Below, piece after piece: positions 12,190 to 27,534 of a stretch of 64,000 nucleotides of DNA; the stretch's first letter is position 1; every line of letters begins with the position of its first letter. The translations under genes and the position numbers were made by a program. The DNA lies in NCBI GenBank assembly GCA_004519485.1, contig CP038110.1, positions 372,001-436,000 of the forward strand, read 5' to 3'. Below the pieces are notes generated by a model. That model saw only the letters and a program-made list of their open reading frames with translations. It made no database searches and had not been told where the DNA came from. This stretch comes from Nannochloropsis oceanica (lineage: Eukaryota > Sar > Eustigmatophyceae > Eustigmatales > Monodopsidaceae).

Positions 12190-14236
12190 GTGGAGGGGCT
12201 GTTGAGCTCGATATTTTTTCGGCCGAGGGTGCGTCACGTACGTTGCTTGGCTGGACAGCTGGTTGGGTCCATCCCCCTCCATCCTTTCCTTCCTGTCTCC
12301 TTTGCTTTGTGTGCTGTGGGGGGCATGATACATGGACATACTTGGGCCGTTCGGGCGTTCGGGCGGAGCCTGCGTGCTTCGTGCCTGGTCTGCGGGTCCC
12401 GGCGTTTGACACACACCTACCCTACATCTTTTTTTCTCCTCATATCGTGTGCAAACATCTTGTCTCATCCATCCATCCATCCATCCATTCATCCATCCCG
12501 CCTTTCCTTCATGACCGCCACGTCAGTGACAGGTCTGACTCAATCCCTTCTCAAGGACGGAGGGACCCGTGGCGGGCTCGGCGCCTTAGGCAAAGCCGCG
12601 CTCAAAGAACAGAGGGATGCAGAGGGATACCTCTCACACAGGGTGGGGGAGATTCTGCATGGACGGTACAAGGTACGGATGCAGAGAGGGAGGTGGTGAG
12701 GGACGGAGTATGGGAGGGAGGGGAGAGTGTGTGTGTGAGAGACCCCTCCATTCTAATACCCATCTTGGCTCGTTGTGCGCATATATGCGCATGTCCCTCG
12801 CTGGATGTGGTTTCGCTTTCGGAGGACAGTGTACTGCATCGCCTGCTTTTCAGCTGGGTCATTCTTTTCTCTTACCCACGGGAAGAGGAAGAGCACTGGC
12901 TCAGCGGTTGGATTAGGGTTTGCGAAACTTTTGTTTTATTTGTGTTGTCCAAATTTATTTCGATCAGACTAGTGTATCATGTGTTCATGCACGTGTTGAT
13001 ATGCTTATTTGATGCATTTCACGCGCAAGTTCAGGTTTATCAAAAGCTGCGTATCCTCGCCCTGTCCCATACATACATCCTGTCTAGATCCTGGGCACCA
13101 AAGGCCGCGGAATCTTCAGCTCCGTCCTCCTCGCCCAAGACGAACAAGCCCAAGCCAAGCTTCCTCTCCGTCCATCCGGCCTTCCTTCCCTCCCTCACTC
13201 CCCCTCGACAGTGGCCATCAAGGTCTTGCGTGGGAATGAGTTAATGCTCCAGGCAGGGATGAAGGAGGCCGCCATCCTTCGCGACCTAACCCTTGGGGAC
13301 CCTAAGAACCAAGGGCATATCGTTCGATTCCTTGATGACTTTAGGCTAGGTGAACACGTGTGTGTGGTGATGGAGGCCATGCACATGAATCTACGCAAAC
13401 TCCTTAAGACGTATGGGGCGTCGCAGGGGTTGGCCGTGAAAGCAGTTTTGTCCTACACACAGCAGGTAGGCGATACGTAATCTTTCTCTTTGTAAATAAT
13501 CAGGTTATGCACCTAATCTCATTTCTCCCCTCCCTCTTCACAGCTTCTCATCGGCCTGGCCTACCTCCAGCAAAAAGGCATCATCCACGCAGACCTCAAG
13601 CCCGACAACCTCGTCGTCAACAGCAGCATGTCCCTTCTCAAAATCTGCGATTTCGGTTCTGCGCTCCGCGTGCACGAAATTAACGATAAAGAAGAAGACT
13701 CTCTCGCGACCGTTCCGTATTTGCAATCACGTTTTTACCGCGCACCTGAGGTTATGTTGGCTTTGCCTCCCCGAGGAACGCCTATCGATATGTGGTCAGC
13801 AGGAGCCAGTATGTTCGAGATGTACACGGGTAGGGTCTTATTCGACGGCCGGAATAATAATGAAGTTCTGATGCAGATGATGGAGGTCCGGGGAGGGTTC
13901 AGTAAGAGGGTCCTGAAGAAATGTGTGAGCTCGATTAGAAAGAAGCATTTCGATGAGGACGGGATGTTCTTACAGAGAGAATTAGCGGAAAGAGGGGAGA
14001 GTGTCCGGAGCGTGCCCCCTCCTACTGTGCCAAGAAAGCAACTAGGAGAGTTGTTGTGTTCGCCGAAGGTGTGGGCCAAAATGCCTGCTGAGACCAGAGG
14101 GGGGGTTACACTGTTGAGATTTGTTTTAGAGCAAGCATTGGTGTTGGATCCGAGCAAACGGGCGACGCCATTGCAGGCGTTGCAGCTCTTCAAGGAGAGG
14201 AGTGGAGGTGGGGGAGGAGAAAGGGGAGGGAAGTGA
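10710..14236 (+). CDS. PRPF4B: PRP4-type pre-mRNA splicing kinase (911 aa, four exons)
   Basis: Exons are 10710-12228, 12527-12672, 13088-13465 and 13544-14236, with phases 1, 0 and 0 joining cleanly. The first 500 residues are low-complexity, Glu/Lys/Arg/Ala-rich, with an RSRSRSRSRERRR stretch like SR splicing proteins and a poly-Ala run. Exon 2 carries the PRP4 junction motif DAEGYLSHRVGEILHGRY, and exon 3 the glycine loop LGTKGRGIFSSV and the lysine of VAIKVLR. Exon 4 has the atypical catalytic loop HADLKPDN (Arg of HRD replaced, as in known PRP4 kinases), DFGSA and SRFYRAPE. Known PRP4 kinases phosphorylate PRP6/PRP31 in the tri-snRNP during spliceosome activation in the nucleus. Introns 1 and 2 (298 and 415 bp) are long for this window. 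Kinase identity is firm. Confidence 0.92.
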
Positions 14237-20341: not shown

Positions 20342-20767
20342 TTAGTGCGCGACGATCCCATGCAATGGTGAGGGCTGCCTGTACGGTAGGGAGGATGTAT
20401 CTTGCTTGATAAGGTGGGTGCTGCGGGTTTAAGAGTAGTGCTGGAGGTGCGGTCGAAGCCCGGGCGGCTTTTCTGCCACTTGCTTGCCTGCCACTTCGTC
20501 CGTCGTCTGAAAGACGTGAACAACGTGATGGGGTGTGGCAAGGGTGCGTAACTGTGTGCTTTACTTTGCAAATGAAATGGTTAGTGCGTCGCCTCAAAAT
20601 ATCGCACGTAACCTCCTTCTTCTCCTCTAACAAGGTCGCGCTAGTCGCCTCAGGAGTCCACCCATCCCTCAACACAGCATCTGTGTCGTCCCCCGCCTTC
20701 CCCCGCAAGACGCATCTAGCTGTCCCCGTCCCCACACTTTACACACATTGCACAGCTCCAAGTAACT
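20342..20767. other. Divergent intergenic region, AspRS / short-chain dehydrogenase
   Basis: A 426-bp head-to-head spacer, about 534 bp if AspRS starts at 20233. Antisense frames here are shadows. No defined element seen. Confidence 0.5.
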
Positions 20768-22072
20768 ATGGAAATCAAAACCACCGCCTTCTTGGTTGCC
20801 CTCCTGGCCGCCTCGCCCTACATTTTGGAGCTCACGACCCGCGCTGCCTACCCTGTGCCCGCTCCCGGCGGTGGCGTTGTCTTAACTGGGGCCTCGACAG
20901 GTATCGGCGCACACGCTGCCCACAGCCTGGCCGAGGCTGGCTTCTTGGTGTTCGCTGGCGTACGAAAAGAGGCGGACGGGGAAGCACTCAAGGCCAATGC
21001 TCCTACCCCGGAGGCCCGTGAGCATATTGTACCGATTATACTTGACGTGACGAAGCAAGATCAGATTGATGCGGCTGTGAAGATCGTCAATAGCACATTG
21101 ACCGCCAAAGGGGGGGTGCCCTTGGTAGGTTTGGTGAATAACGCAGGGGTTGGAGGAGGGATGAAACCGGTAGAGTTCGAGAATATGGAGGATTTGAGGA
21201 ATTTGTTTGATGTGAACTATTTTGGGGCTGTCTCGACGACAAAGGCCTTTCTTTCCCTCCTCCGTGATGGAAAAGGAAGGGTGATTAACATCAGCAGCAT
21301 GGCTGGGCTGTTTTCCGCACCCATGATGATGAGCTATTGCGGGAGTAAGTTTGCATTGGAAGCCTTCTCGGATACGTTGAGAGTGGAGGTGCAGAAGCAT
21401 GGTGTGTCGGTCTCAGTGGTAGAGCCCGCCTATGTCCAGAGTGCCATTTTCGGTAAAAACGACGCGGCAATGGCGAAAATCAAGGAGAGGGCTGGGTCGC
21501 AGGTAAGTGTATGAACGTGTCTGTGTGGCCAAATCATCTCGCTTGAATCTTACTTGGGCTTTGCTTTTGATTGTGTACCTGTAACTCAACCTGTGTGTCT
21601 CTCTCTCCCAACTCACCTAATTGCCTACCTTCTCCTCACTCCCTAACTCCCTCCATCCTCCTCACTCCCTCACTCCCTCCCTTTAACCACTCTGCTTCCT
21701 CGAAGATCGATAAATTGTATGGGCACGTCAGTGCCCGCCCCGAGTACTTTCAACAGTGCGTGGCCAAGGCCAGCCCCCCGTCTGTGACGAGCGACGCCAT
21801 ACTGCATGCACTAACCTCGAAGTACCCACAGACCCGCTATGTGGTGGCCAATGTAGACGGTACGTCGAACCCCCTCTTTCTCTTCTTTCCCTCCCTCCCA
21901 CTGTATTTCGAGAGACACACTCTCCCTCCTCTCACAAACACCTTCTCCATTTTTCTTTCCAGGGAAACCAGCCAAGGTACTCGGGTGGGTGGTGTGGTTG
22001 CTGAATGATCGATTGAGGGATAGGATGGTAGTGCGTAGCGTCATTGACAGGTCCAAGGCGCGGCGCGTGTGA
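20768..22072 (+). CDS. Short-chain dehydrogenase/reductase, membrane-anchored (332 aa, three exons)
   Basis: Exons are 20768-21502, 21706-21859 and 21963-22072, with donors GTAAGT and GTACGT and phases 0 and 1. A hydrophobic N terminus (FLVALLAASPYILEL) suggests a signal anchor. The classical SDR signatures are present: NAD(P)-binding TGASTGIG at 40-47, LVNNAGVGGG, the catalytic Ser of INISSMAG, and YCGSK with Tyr at residue 190. The family oxidises or reduces alcohols and ketones using NAD(P)(H). The overall pattern resembles 17-beta-hydroxysteroid or retinol dehydrogenase-like SDRs, but the substrate cannot be assigned. The C terminus is basic (VIDRSKARRV) and predicted by splicing only. 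The acceptors lie in pyrimidine-rich CTCCCT tracts. Confidence 0.9.
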
Positions 22073-22622: not shown

Positions 22623-25600
22623 TTACAAACCCAAGGAGGAAGAGCGAACGTAATCAAAACCATCCCACGCCCCATCATCCTTGTCCTTCCATTCTCCCTC
22701 TTTCCTTCTGCCCCTCCTCCCCCCTTCTCTCACCGTCCCGGCCCCGCACATTCCCCTCACCTTCCCAAACGCAGATCCACACATCATCCCTCCCTCCTTA
22801 CCCCCCCATCCCTCTCCTTCCTCCTCCTCCACCTCCTCCTCCTCCTCCTCCTCCTCCTCCTCCTCCTCCCTGAACACCACCTCGCTGTGCCTCATTCTCC
22901 CCTCCGTATACACCCAAGAAAAACATCGGGTGTCTTCCTGCCCCCTCACCACCGGCACATAGGGAGCCTCCACCTCCTTCCTCTCGATCTCCTCCCAGTT
23001 TAATCCAGCGAAAAAGGAATGCTCTTTGAGCCTCGCCACACCACCTAGGCGAGTGTCAGGGTTTTTATCAAGGAGGGCGAGAATGAGAAGACGGGCTGAG
23101 GGGCTGAGGGAGGGGTGGAGGGAGGGAGGGAAGGCGCAAATGTTTCGGAGGGTCTCGGCGGGAGAAGGAGGGAGGGAGGGAGGGAGGGAGGGAGGGCGGG
23201 AGGGCGGGAGGGAGGGAGAAGTGGAGGGGGGTTTGAAGGGGTGTTTGCGGGTGAGCATTTCATGGAGGCAGAGACCGAGGCACCACCAGTCGACGGGGAG
23301 GGAGTGACCCTGGTTGAGAAGGAGCTCTGGGGAAAGGTATTCGTTGGTGCCGCAGAAGGAGTGGGTGCGGTAGAGGTGCGAGGAAGATGGAGGGAGGGAG
23401 GGGATAGAGTAGGCGGTTGTCGCTCGAGTGGGAGGGGGAGGGCGAGAAGGAGGAGGGAGGGGAGGCAGAGGAGAATTGCCGTCACCGACAGGTGGGGGAG
23501 GGAGGGTGTGGGCTCCATAGTGGGGCAACTCCAGAGAAATGCTGTCATTTGTCTCGCTTAAACGGTGAGTGTCATGGATGTCCGAAAAGAGGAAGGAGGA
23601 GGAGGAGGAGGAGGAGGCTGCTGCGTTTGCTGCGGCTGCTGCCGGGAGAGCAGCAGCAGCGGTGCGAGGAGCAGCTGCTGCAAAGGGAGGTGGGGGAGGG
23701 GGTGATGGGTTTCGATCCAGGAGGGATGATTCAGGGGCGAGACCATCTCTGTCCGAGGAGCAGGCGACGTGGTCGTGGTACTGGTGCAAGGACGAGGAGG
23801 AGGACGAAAAGGGCATTGATGCTGATGCTGTCACTGCTGCTGCTGCAGGAGGAGGGGTAGCAGCAGCAGCAGCAGCAACAGCAACAGCAGGCGCCGAAGC
23901 AGCCGGCACTGGTACTAGCCTCGCAGCTGCTGGCTCTCTTACTGCTGCAGCTGCTGCCACTATATTGACCCCTGCACCTTTTCTCTCAACGTCAGCCCCA
24001 TTATCCTCCGCTGGATCATCGCGTCCATCGCCACAACCTCCTTCCCTCCGCATCACATCCGACAGCTTCGCGTGCCAATCCCTCCCCATTACCGCATTCT
24101 CCGGCTTTGGATCCCTATTAAGCGCCCAGCTTCTTCCCTCCCCATCACCCCCTCTTTCATCCACGAGTGAGTGCAACGGCGGCTCGCTTACAAAATGCCG
24201 CGCCAACCCCAAATCCGTTAACTTCACATGCCCATCCCTCCCCATCAATATATTCTCCGGCTTTAAGTCTCTGTAAATAACCCCTTTCCCATGCATGTAC
24301 TCAATCGCCAGTGCAATTTCTGCGACATACACCCTCGCCGCCTCCTCCTTCATCTTGCCCTCCCTCCTCATCAAGGTGAAGAGATCGCCTCCCTGGCAAA
24401 AATCCAGGCCAAGGTAGACTCTCGTGGAGGTATGAAAAGCGAAGTGCAAAGTGACAATAAATGGGTGCCGGAAGAGGGACAGGGTGTTCTTTTCCGTCAA
24501 GGTGCGCTCGATTTGGTTGCGCTTGGAGAGGTCGGATTTGAGGAGGACTTTAAGGGCGTAGACAGGGGGTTGTTGTGAGTGGGGGGAAGGTGGGGGGGGG
24601 GGGAGGGAGGTATGCGGAAGGAAATAAAGAGGAGGAGGAGAAAGAGGAGGACGGAGTCTGGTGCAGCTGCTGCAGCTGCTGCTGCCCGGGCGCAGGGCCA
24701 GGGCGACGGCGACGCACTAAGTAGACTCTACCGAAGCCGCCTCGGCCGATGAGGGAAATCACGTCCAGGTCCTTCAGGCTCACTTTCGAAGTCGGAGGGG
24801 GGGGGGGGGGGGGGAGGGAACAGGGGCAGGGGCCGGAGAAGCGACTGCTTCTTGTTCCTCCTCCGGCATTTGGGATGGTGCCGGCAGGTCTTGCTCCTCC
24901 TCTTCCTCCTTCCCTTCCTCCCTCCCTAGAGACAGAGAGCTTCCTCCAGGGCCACCAAAGAGGAAGGAGGCAAAGGAGGAGGACGAGGACGAGAGGGAGC
25001 ACGGCGCCGTTTCAGCTGAAGGGGAAAGTTGCTGCTTCTCTTCTTTTTCTGCTGCTGCTGCTGCTGCAGTAGCAGCAGCATGTTTTGCACGTCTGCCCAT
25101 ACTGCTGTTGCTCTTGTTGCTCGCCATCACCATCCCTCGTGCCATCAATACCCCTCTCCTTCCGGTCCTGGCTCCCCTCTCCCTCTTCTCCTCCTCCTCT
25201 TCCTCCTCCTCCTCCCTCCTCCTTCTCCTCCTCTCCTGTCTCTCCGCCCCCCATGCCCTCCACGCCGCCTCGTGCGACATCACCAACCCAACCCACCCAC
25301 CCCCCTTCCCTCCCTCCCTCCCTCCCCGCCACCACTTCGAGCCCTCCTCCTTCCCACCATTCATCTGACAAATCACCGTCAACACACATTCCTCCTCTTC
25401 CTTCTCCTCCCATCCTCCCTTCCTCCCTCCATGGGAAGAAACCTGCGCGAGAGAACCCTTCCCCATTTCCGCCCTCCCTCTCTCCCTCCGTAAGGGACGT
25501 AGGACGTAGAGCAAAAGGAGGACCTCAGCCGGCGTGTGGGTGGCTGGAGGACCGCCCTCTACCCGCGTATGCCTCACGCTGATTTCGTACACATACAGAG

Positions 25601-26407
25601 CCTCCTCGCTCGAGTCAAAGAACGAATCTTGCAACAGGCACGCTTCCCACACACGGGGTAGAGGGCGAGGACGAGGGATGGATGGAAGGAGGGGGGAAGG
25701 GGAGGGGGACGACAACGAGTGGGCCGTGCGGTAAATGATGCGGGTGGTGTTCACAGGAGACTGTGACATGCTCTTCACCCCCTCACCCTTCCCCCCTCCT
25801 CGGATTCCGCGGCAGCGCGGCTCATGTGCGTCTATGGCCTCCAGCAACCTTGCAACCTCGGCACCGCAGGCCTGGCAGCGCGCCACTTTATAATTACAGG
25901 CGGTGGCGGCGGCAGTGGCTGCTCCTCCTCCTCCGCCTCCTCCGCCTCCTCCTCTTCCTTCTCCTCCTCCAACTCCTGATTTTGCCTCCGCTCCATCTGC
26001 TCCTCCTGCAGCTTCGGATGCATCCCCTCCTCCTTCCTCCCTTCCTCTCCCTCCTCTCCCCAGTAGGACGTTCCTGCACTTCACCAGATCTGGTAGCTCC
26101 TCCACCACCATCCCGTCCTCAAAGCCCGCTTCGGCCCCCCCCTTCCTCCCTCCCTCCCTCCCGCTCCTTCCCTCCTCCTTGGTGGGATAAACCTCGTACA
26201 GTTCGTGAAGGAAAGTTGACGGAGAACACGGGATGACACCAACGGTTTTGGTGATGGGGGAGAAGGAGCCTAACGGTTTCGAACGGGTGTAGTGCTTGGT
26301 GAGATGAGACGTGGAAGAGGGCGAGGAAGGGAAGGAGGACGGGGACGACGGCGACAACGACGACGACGAACCTCTGTCGCTAAACTTTTTAAGCACTTTT
26401 CGTGTCG

Positions 26408-26440
<33 letters not shown>

Positions 26441-27534
26441 TGGTGGTTTTTGATTCTTGGAGGTGCCACCCGGGGGCGTTACGCTTGCCGACTTGTCGGA
26501 CGCGCTCACGGAGTTTGAGTAAGGCGATGGCTTGGGCAATAGCCGTGGGATTGGTATTGACGCCTTGAGAGGGTGAAGAGAGGGAGGAAGGGAAAGGCGG
26601 GGAATCGCCTGCAGCTGCAGGAGAAGGAGGAGGACGAGCAATTATAGGATGTATGGAAGGAGGAGGAGGGGGAGGAGGAGGGTCGAAGGCAAAGGCCTCT
26701 TCGATCTCTCTGGCCAATGCCATGTCCAACACGAGGGAATTGTGTGCAGTGTGTGCAGGAAAGGCCCAGCGTTTCCTCCCCCGTACCCTCCCTCTCTCCC
26801 CCCCCGCTTGAAGTCGTGCGGTGAACGATGACAGAGAGGGAAAAGAGAAGGAGGATGGGGATGAGGATAGCGGCAGCCCTCCCTCTCGCCAGGCAGCATC
26901 CTCCACGTCACATGTAAATTCATAAAGCAGGTATGCATCAACCATGTGCTTAACTGCCTCCTCCTTGTCTCCTCTCTTTCTCCCTCCTCTTTTTCTCTCA
27001 AATGACGCCGATTCGTCTACCGCACGGACGAAACCCAAAGCAATCATCTCATCGCCCAGTCGCGTTGCTTCCCCTCTTGACGAAGCATACCCCTTGTTGT
27101 GTATCCACGACACAGCCTCGCCGCCAATGAAGCAGGAAGGGAGGATGGTCTTGGTTTTCGGTTTCTTGCGGTTGCGGATCTGAAGCGGAGAGGGGTGGTA
27201 AGGGAACACAGTGGATGAGTCATGAGAGAGGCAAGAATTTATCATAGCATTTCGCTCTCCTATTGGATCCTTTCACTGCATCACGAAGAAGAAAGCTATA
27301 GGGTCAGGGGTGCTTCTACGCACAGACATGCTGAGCTGTTGATCTCGAACTGCCACCTCTCTCCTTTCCCAGTAGCCTCACCTCTAAGGCCAAATACATG
27401 TGAGCTGCCACCTCCTCCACATACACAGGCTCGTAACATTGCCCCCGTCCTCGTGCCCGCCGCCGGCCCGTGTGTTGCGCGCTGGTAGCGGTGGTGCAGG
27501 CAGCAGGAACAATGCGGGAGGCGGAGCTGGCCAT
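22623..27534 (-). CDS. DEP-domain AGC protein kinase with interrupted activation segment
   Basis: The proposed start is at 27534 (MASSASRIVP), with an intron at 27381-27180 (GTGAGG..CAG). The DEP domain follows (SCFIGGEAVSWIHNKGY..RGEATRLGDEMI..YLLYEF). Next come long low-complexity stretches and a possible START-like region (SPSTFLHELYEVYP, ALYVYEISVRHTR), which is weak. The kinase starts at about 24780 with DVISLIGRGGFGRVYLV, then VYALKVLLK, the catalytic loop YRDLKPENILMG, DLG, and SPELLLNQGHSLPVDWWCLG, and ends in an AGC-like tail with poly-Glu. The reading frame changes at a G18 run (24797-24814) and again at a G12 run (24592-24603). Neither gap has splice signals, so homopolymer miscalls or real lesions are likely. 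Between DLG and the substrate loop sit degenerate repeats of kinase motifs. Family assignment is good; exact structure is uncertain. Confidence 0.7.
22831..22870. repeat. (CCT)n tract coding for poly-Glu in the AGC kinase tail
   Basis: CCT units on the plus strand read as GAG (Glu) codons in the kinase C-terminal tail, interrupted by one ACC. Confidence 0.75.
23167..23218. repeat. (GGGA)n tract inside kinase-domain coding sequence
   Basis: A tetranucleotide repeat read on the minus strand as a Pro/Ser array ([10 protein letters not shown]) between the MLTRKHPFKPP segment and the helix that follows. Because the unit is four bases, only length changes of three units keep the frame. Confidence 0.75.
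24592..24603. repeat. G12 homopolymer at a kinase frame change
   Basis: The kinase glycine-loop frame and the VYALK frame differ across this run, and no AG acceptor lies near it. Confidence 0.7.
24797..24814. repeat. G18 homopolymer at a DEP-to-kinase frame change
   Basis: The DEP-side frame ends in poly-Pro at this run, and the kinase-side frame emerges from it also as poly-Pro. A length error of one or two bases would join them. Confidence 0.75.

Follow-up and report, generated by a model that had tools for sequence, protein, structure and literature searches.

In Nannochloropsis oceanica, a gene for an AGC kinase carries an open insert of 269 aa within the activation segment of the encoded enzyme, and each edge of this insert holds a degenerate counterpart of the kinase motif that adjoins it. 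Along the coding strand, the intact catalytic loop (L) was followed by an altered loop (L'), an altered T-loop/P+1 segment (P') and the intact T-loop/P+1 segment (P), the same order as described in the original prediction made from this DNA. Judged by their sequences, both inner stretches are copies of the gene's own motifs. We favor, with a probability of roughly 0.6, the reading that the insert of this AGC kinase underwent two edge duplications, and that the inner copies drifted neutrally and have no role of their own. In several lineages, long activation-segment inserts have a regulatory role in AGC kinases, and their origin is seldom visible. Readable decayed core copies at the insert edges would make growth by edge duplication datable, and testable in relatives. 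A further caution is that a plain motif scan might count RDxKPEN twice in one kinase, the degenerate copy included.

The kinase gene and its reading frames

The window, i.e., the whole 64,000-nucleotide stretch analysed (G000:C13:372001-436000), had a GC content of 0.538 and belongs to a genome of 29.26 Mb in 32 contigs. The kinase open frame (22623-24716, minus strand) encodes 697 aa, which comprise most of an AGC kinase domain (from VYALKVL onward), the insert, the C-lobe and the C-tail. This frame matched Pfam PF00069 (E=5.9e-50). In a PDB sequence search, its top matches were RSK/S6K chains, and the best 60 of the 2195 matches were RSK, S6K, SGK, AKT and PKA chains. The kinase catalytic residues and an AGC-type sequence were found in the frame. 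The Lys of YALKV, the Glu of RTLTEKN, YRDLKPEN, DLG, SPE and DWW, to which the usual roles in kinases are assigned, were all present. The kinase core looks complete from VYALKVL on, with a C-lobe that looks intact.

A second open frame with a DEP domain (24780-27272, minus strand; 830 aa; PF00610, E=4.9e-11) lies upstream. Order and strand suggest that this frame is, very likely, the N-terminal portion of the kinase gene. The DEP match ahead of the kinase (26994-27185, minus strand) was the only one found in a six-frame search of the genome. The glycine-rich loop IGRGGFGRVYLV sits in a third frame, apart from the 697-aa and 830-aa frames. Poly-C tracts of 18 (24814-24797) and 12 (24603-24592) nucleotides, both on the minus strand, are located near the two N-lobe frame breaks. 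These breaks may reflect wrong homopolymer lengths, variable tracts, unrecognised splicing or a damaged gene. A Pfam scan of the three frames of the gene, as delimited here, returned DEP and kinase-type families only. Between the DEP and kinase domains, a CxxC...HxxxC stretch (CQACGAEVARLLEAIDAHEPRC; 25877-25812, minus strand) was noticed, which had no Pfam match.

A 269-aa insert in the activation segment

The insert (23382-24188, minus strand; frame residues 177-445) is located between DLGLARHFV and SHLYRTHSFCGT. The alignment with PDB kinases stopped at residues 176-178 (DLGLARHFV) and restarted at residues 445-446 (SHLYRTHSFCGTNEYLSPE). Ala, Pro and Ser were the commonest insert residues, and short tandem repeats were found within the insert as well as in other parts of the gene. 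There was no in-frame stop in the insert, and the other two sense frames had 7 and 12. Only 0.0005 of the dinucleotide shuffles of the whole insert were stop-free; most of this signal came from the first half (0.0037), and the second half alone was unremarkable (0.09). Synonymous codon choice in the Ala-rich part scored -0.155 in the open frame versus 0.202 in another frame, in a test that was trained on 17 loci with 2420 codons and was weak, for the C-lobe too.

When the insert was compared with its own genome, 16 matches were obtained at E<=1. The best match outside the gene (G000:C11:1086703-1087374; E=7.1e-8; 34% identity; query 46-269) lies in a 1786-aa open frame, and perhaps reflects nothing but a shared low-complexity Ala/Ser/Pro composition. 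The distance from loop start to GT..PE was 308 residues in the kinase studied here. In a set of loci from this genome, GT..PE was recognisable for 5 of the 11 catalytic-loop matches read on the plus strand, 39-109 residues past the loop start, and the longest of these five spans belongs to a PDK1-like kinase, in which an acidic, low-complexity insert is likewise present. The 269-aa insert is thus of a familiar type but large, and the decayed core copies at both of its edges are the unusual part.

A degenerate copy of the catalytic loop

The intact segment L, from the catalytic loop to the Mg-binding motif, reads YRDLKPENILMGRDGHVKLTDL (24275-24210, minus strand), and the degenerate copy L' reads NRDPKPENAVMGRDWHAKLSDV (24119-24054, minus strand). 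The offset from L to L' is 156 nt, which equals 52 codons, without gaps and in frame. The two segments were identical at 48/66 nt and 14/22 residues. L was placed at 127,870 positions over both strands of the window; 48/66 or more was reached by L itself and L' alone, and the next placement had 34/66. The protein score of the pair was 74, whereas 5000 shuffled inserts gave at most 31. A degenerate loop copy 52 codons past the intact loop, as originally predicted, is thus well borne out; the two 62-nt blocks on which that prediction was built do align ungapped at the offset of 156, with loop coordinates that were 6-10 nt off. L' has Asn, Pro and Trp at the positions of Tyr, Leu and Gly in L, and its retained residues are R, D, K, P, E, N and the second D.

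When the DNA of 24040-24300 was searched in the entire genome, the self-match was the only one. We also scanned for 60-nt near-repeats at most 1.5 kb apart, low complexity excluded, in 191,161 bases, which comprised the window and 37 own-genome loci, several of them overlapping the kinase gene and one another. Eight rows reached at least 40/60, and with the threshold at 38/60 the number was 14. Of the eight, five were the L/L' pair, seen via overlapping loci, and three came from tandem kinase domains on contig 4. When 18 catalytic loops, L included, were compared, L' was nearest to L (48/66) and then to a PDK1-like loop (40/66).

A degenerate copy of the T-loop/P+1 segment

At the other edge of the insert, the intact T-loop/P+1 segment P (23381-23295, minus strand; SHLYRTHSFCGTNEYLSPELLLNQGHSLP) has the core TNEYLSPELLLNQGHSLP (23348-23295), and the degenerate copy P' (23585-23499, minus strand; SDIHDTHRLSETNDSISLELPHYGAHTLP) has the core TNDSISLELPHYGAHTLP (23552-23499). 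The 18-residue piece to which the prediction had pointed was weak alone: the cores of P and P' agreed at 31/54 nt, another site of the window reached 32, and the protein score was matched by 4 of 5000 shuffles. Over 29 codons, however, P and P' agreed at 50/87 nt (next placement in the window, 46) and at 11/29 residues. The BLOSUM62 score of the 29 residues was 47, compared to 28 for the next best in the six frames of the window, which confirms a degenerate P+1 copy ahead of the intact one. A Smith-Waterman comparison of residues 446-497 with the insert, L' removed, returned this 29-residue alignment with the score of 47, compared to 22.8 +- 3.5 for shuffles; the score was matched by none of 1000 full shuffles and none of 2000 shuffles of 30-aa blocks. 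When all kinase parts were used as the query, the observed score of 55 was reached in 1 of 1000 full and 2 of 1000 block shuffles.

In DNA, a stringent Smith-Waterman search scored P' at 20, below a low-complexity match at 22, and under lax scoring the P' score was matched by 19 of 1000 shuffles. The codons of P and P' agreed at 13/29 third positions and 20/29 second positions. An old divergence would explain the poor DNA alignment of P'. On these scores, P' is a copy that is clear in protein and weak in DNA. Against P, the score of P' was 47, and against nine other P+1 segments of the genome it did not exceed 6, so that P' resembles residues peculiar to this kinase gene. P' carries R, L-S-E, S and L at the places of the SFCGT Ser, FCG, the Tyr and the SPE Pro in P; of these residues of P, the SFCGT Ser is presumably a phosphosite. 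The DNA scores and the 18-residue piece would be compatible with P' being a chance likeness and L' the sole duplication, since the stringent search misses P'. We nevertheless regard such a coincidence as quite improbable, because in six frames of 64 kb nothing else in protein came near P', no block shuffle reached its score, gene, frame and place all match, and the likeness is confined to residues that are common with P and absent from the nine other P+1 segments.

Origin of the copies

Two sources of the copies were rejected. A copy from a paralogous kinase was ruled out for the loci compared, in which L' and P' were nearer to their own partners; the 17 other loops and 9 other P+1 segments compared are a minority of the 142 kinase matches of one search or the 79 of another. 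A tandem duplication of a loop-to-P+1 unit, or of the whole kinase domain, predicts the order L-P-L-P and not L-L'-P'-P. Among 600 pattern matches on viral contigs, no orthologue was found, and the 583 pattern matches on genome contigs included at least 10 loci, all with bacterial record titles.

The decay of the copies was simulated by allowing only synonymous changes in the outer copy and any change except stops in the inner copy, and each run was continued to the observed number of differences. At kappa 2, the identities expected at the three codon positions were 16.5, 17.0 and 14.6 for the L pair (14, 19 and 15 observed), and 18.2, 18.0 and 13.8 for the P pair (17, 20 and 13 observed). The expected number of identical residues was 11.6-12.7 for the L pair (14 seen) and 10.3-10.8 for the P pair (11 seen), and neither pair departed from drift. 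Neutral decay fits the codon-position patterns of both inner copies best, as far as these sequence comparisons indicate. For kappa 1-4, the fitted number of events per site and branch was 0.29-0.30 (5-95% interval, 0.20-0.41) for the L pair and 0.54-0.55 (0.40-0.74) for the P pair. A direct test of the unequal identities of the two pairs gave P=0.062. The flanks of the copies were unlike; in four comparisons, the score was reached by 219, 222, 59 and 260 of 1000 shuffles. There was no indel inside either copy, an absence that is partly built in because ungapped blocks were sought. The probability of no indel over approximately 63 modelled substitutions was 0.042, 0.002 and <0.001 at indel/substitution ratios of 0.05, 0.1 and 0.15, respectively. 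That neither copy contains a stop is, taken alone, hardly informative (P=0.24).

These results favor two separate local duplications, P first, over a single nested copy. We propose that one in-frame local duplication occurred at each edge of the insert, each copying the adjoining kinase DNA. The earlier event would have duplicated approximately 87 nt of the T-loop/P+1 region, giving P' and P, and the later one approximately 66 nt of the catalytic-loop region, giving L' from L. The copies contiguous with the folded core, which are the first L and the last P, would have remained under selection. The other copies would have joined the insert, been freed of the folding constraint and drifted. If only the core-contiguous copies are kept and the insert-side copies decay, the order L-L'-P'-P arises without any nesting event. 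The inner copies would have stayed in frame because they are translated. Hence the insert may have grown in part by duplicating its own edges. L' and P' would be non-catalytic, most likely without a role of their own, and in all likelihood remain as harmless by-products of local duplications. By analogy with other AGC kinases, the entire insert may serve as a flexible linker or as a docking or phosphorylation region.

The original prediction placed an altered copy of the activation segment within that segment itself. The layout is as it was described, and a single event is probably not its cause. A whole activation segment copied into the activation segment would give the nested order L-L'-P'-P at once and would account for both edges of one insert being hit. 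In addition, L/L' was the only complex local repeat of at least 40/60 in the scanned bases besides the tandem kinase domain pair, and the test of unequal identities between the pairs reached only P=0.062. However, the fitted ages are approximately twofold apart with intervals that barely touch, the likeness stops at the two blocks, and nesting is superfluous if selection keeps the core-contiguous copies. We therefore hold one nested copying event to be unlikely, and two edge duplications remain the preferred history.

Splicing of the insert

The best in-frame intron candidate within the insert (24191-23781, minus strand; 411 nt) has a GTAAGC donor at 24191 and the acceptor TTGCACCAG ending at 23781, and its removal would excise L' and spare P'. 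The donor lies within one codon of the end of the kinase likeness. Weaker in-phase acceptors (60% pyrimidine) end at 23553 and 23529, and their use would take part of P' too. The candidate had no stop in frame 0 and 6 and 8 stops in the other frames, and 0.0037 of its shuffles were stop-free. Codon choice scored -0.053 in the open frame versus 0.119 in another frame, by the same weak test. Two further arrangements were rejected. A single in-frame intron that spans the entire insert is excluded, since no in-phase acceptor with at least 60% pyrimidine was present between P' and P; mutually exclusive exons were discarded because no acceptor with at least 60% pyrimidine was present between L and L'. 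In the window, a gene named short-chain dehydrogenase-like from its translation (about 20763-22000, plus strand) has apparent introns beginning with GTAAGT and GTACGT, which guided the reading of splice sites.

Part of the insert could thus be an in-frame intron or exitron, in which case L' would be either a relic within an intron or a segment included at times, and P' would still be translated unless one of the weaker acceptors was used. The GTAAGC donor at the end of the kinase likeness and the in-phase pyrimidine-rich acceptor speak for such an element, and codon choice in the candidate does not favor the frame. N. oceanica introns are reported to average 230 bp, with 1.7 per gene (PMC3499364), and exitrons are described as favoring disordered regions, approximately half of them being multiples of 3 nt in length (PMC4484396). 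On the other side, the candidate is open in frame to an extent that few shuffles match, its donor TTT|GTAAGC lacks the G that precedes GT in four donor-like sites chosen by eye, the insert cannot be wholly one such intron for want of an in-phase acceptor from P' to P, and L' is free of indels. We consider a spliced segment a minority possibility of some weight, and an insert that is translated throughout is still preferred.

Constraint on the inner copies and predicted structure

The original prediction had left three readings of the duplicated segment side by side, namely a pseudosubstrate-like insert, a regulatory loop and a neutral duplication. Neutrality fits best, from the codon positions, and what supports a decoy is weak and post hoc. 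A functional decoy would imply that L' and P' mimic parts of the active site and act as competitors of those parts or of substrates, by autoinhibition or as a pseudosubstrate. The retention of the seven residues R, D, K, P, E, N and second D in L' had P values of 0.001-0.01, and that of R, D, K, N and D had P values of 0.028-0.042, both sets having been chosen post hoc; D, K, N and D alone gave 0.055-0.078. The residue differences were as neutral decay predicts when L is constrained (P 0.12-0.31), and purifying selection on L' was rejected. When all change was assigned to L', residue retention had P values of 0.02-0.07, which, like the values for R, D, K, N and D, are a mild sign of constraint. 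Furthermore, P' is devoid of the likely phosphosite, FCG, the Tyr and the Pro, and the insert alone gave no kinase match in PDB sequences or Pfam and was predicted with low fold confidence. We consequently judge a functional decoy very improbable. A more elaborate conjecture is that the insert keeps copying the core at its own edges and that the inner copies are retained as competing loop and P+1 decoys, as a switch between true and false motifs, or with the false loop spliced out, and we would give it hardly any credence.

An AlphaFold2 model was computed for residues 50-589, insert included, with 10 bacterial kinase rows. The mean pLDDT was 59.2 and the pTM was 0.52. As far as the activation segment, pLDDT block means of the kinase core were mostly >90, and the 10-residue block means of L were 93-95. 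In contrast, the pLDDT was <50 at model residues 128-166, 177-367 and 378-403, which make up most of the insert. L' (model residues 151-172) was drawn as a low-confidence helix with pLDDT blocks of 35-47, and P' (model residues 329-357) was without structure, with blocks of 29-36. The intact P had low pLDDT at its start (32-60), which then climbed to 87-89. The low values in the insert are weak evidence of disorder, since hardly any rows of the alignment covered it. With the insert included, as had been envisaged in the original prediction, the fold prediction was thus confident for the core and gave weak support to disorder of the insert. In this model, the insert is probably disordered and lacks the appearance of a folded decoy.

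Comparison with other kinases

Greatwall/MASTL is an AGC kinase with a non-conserved activation-segment insertion of approximately 550 aa, in which phosphorylation by Cyclin B-Cdk1 is described as activating (PMC11961639). A long activation-segment insertion, of 269 aa here, is common to both kinases. However, no MASTL chain was among the best 60 of the 2195 PDB matches, in what was a best-match test and not a tree. Unlike Greatwall/MASTL, the kinase here is nearest to RSK/S6K and has self-copies at the insert edges and a DEP domain. The yeast NDR-like AGC kinase Rim15 is reported to have a 188-aa insert between subdomains VII and VIII with a 14-3-3 binding site, and a CCHC zinc finger in front (PMC1479807). 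The CxxC...HxxxC stretch at 25877-25812 is perhaps similar to this zinc finger. The PAS and receiver domains of Rim15 were not found in the Pfam scan of the three frames; a DEP domain is present instead, in addition to the self-copies.

The plant AGCVIII kinases (PINOID, D6PK and the phototropins) are characterized by a VII-VIII insertion of 36-118 aa and a DFD motif (PMC3499706). In some of these kinases, the insertion is reported to direct the protein to the membrane or the nucleus (PMC3499706, PMC10881395), and D6PK is described as using it for membrane polarity (PMC10881395). The kinase here has DLG and 269 aa, versus DFD and 36-118 aa, and lies outside this definition. In the heterokont Phytophthora infestans, DEP is listed in five AGC/TKL kinases (PMC3019232); no insert is mentioned in the excerpts of that report. 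Insertions in long exons are reported to encode mostly unstructured regions, half of them arising from changes in tandem repeats (PMC12457776). Here, by contrast, parts of the folded core were copied, and they lie inside the activation segment of an enzyme. Among the open-licence papers retrieved, judged by title and opening lines of the abstract, no report of degenerate kinase-motif copies in an activation segment was found, nor did a search return any literature on the Nannochloropsis AGC kinome.

Two further kinase loci were noticed. A second kinase-domain match in the window (13208-14185, plus strand) contains three TAA, which probably lie in introns. At G000:C4:344580-346476, two tandem kinase domains approximately 1071 nt apart both have HRDLKPEN, and their loops are alike at 45/60 nt.
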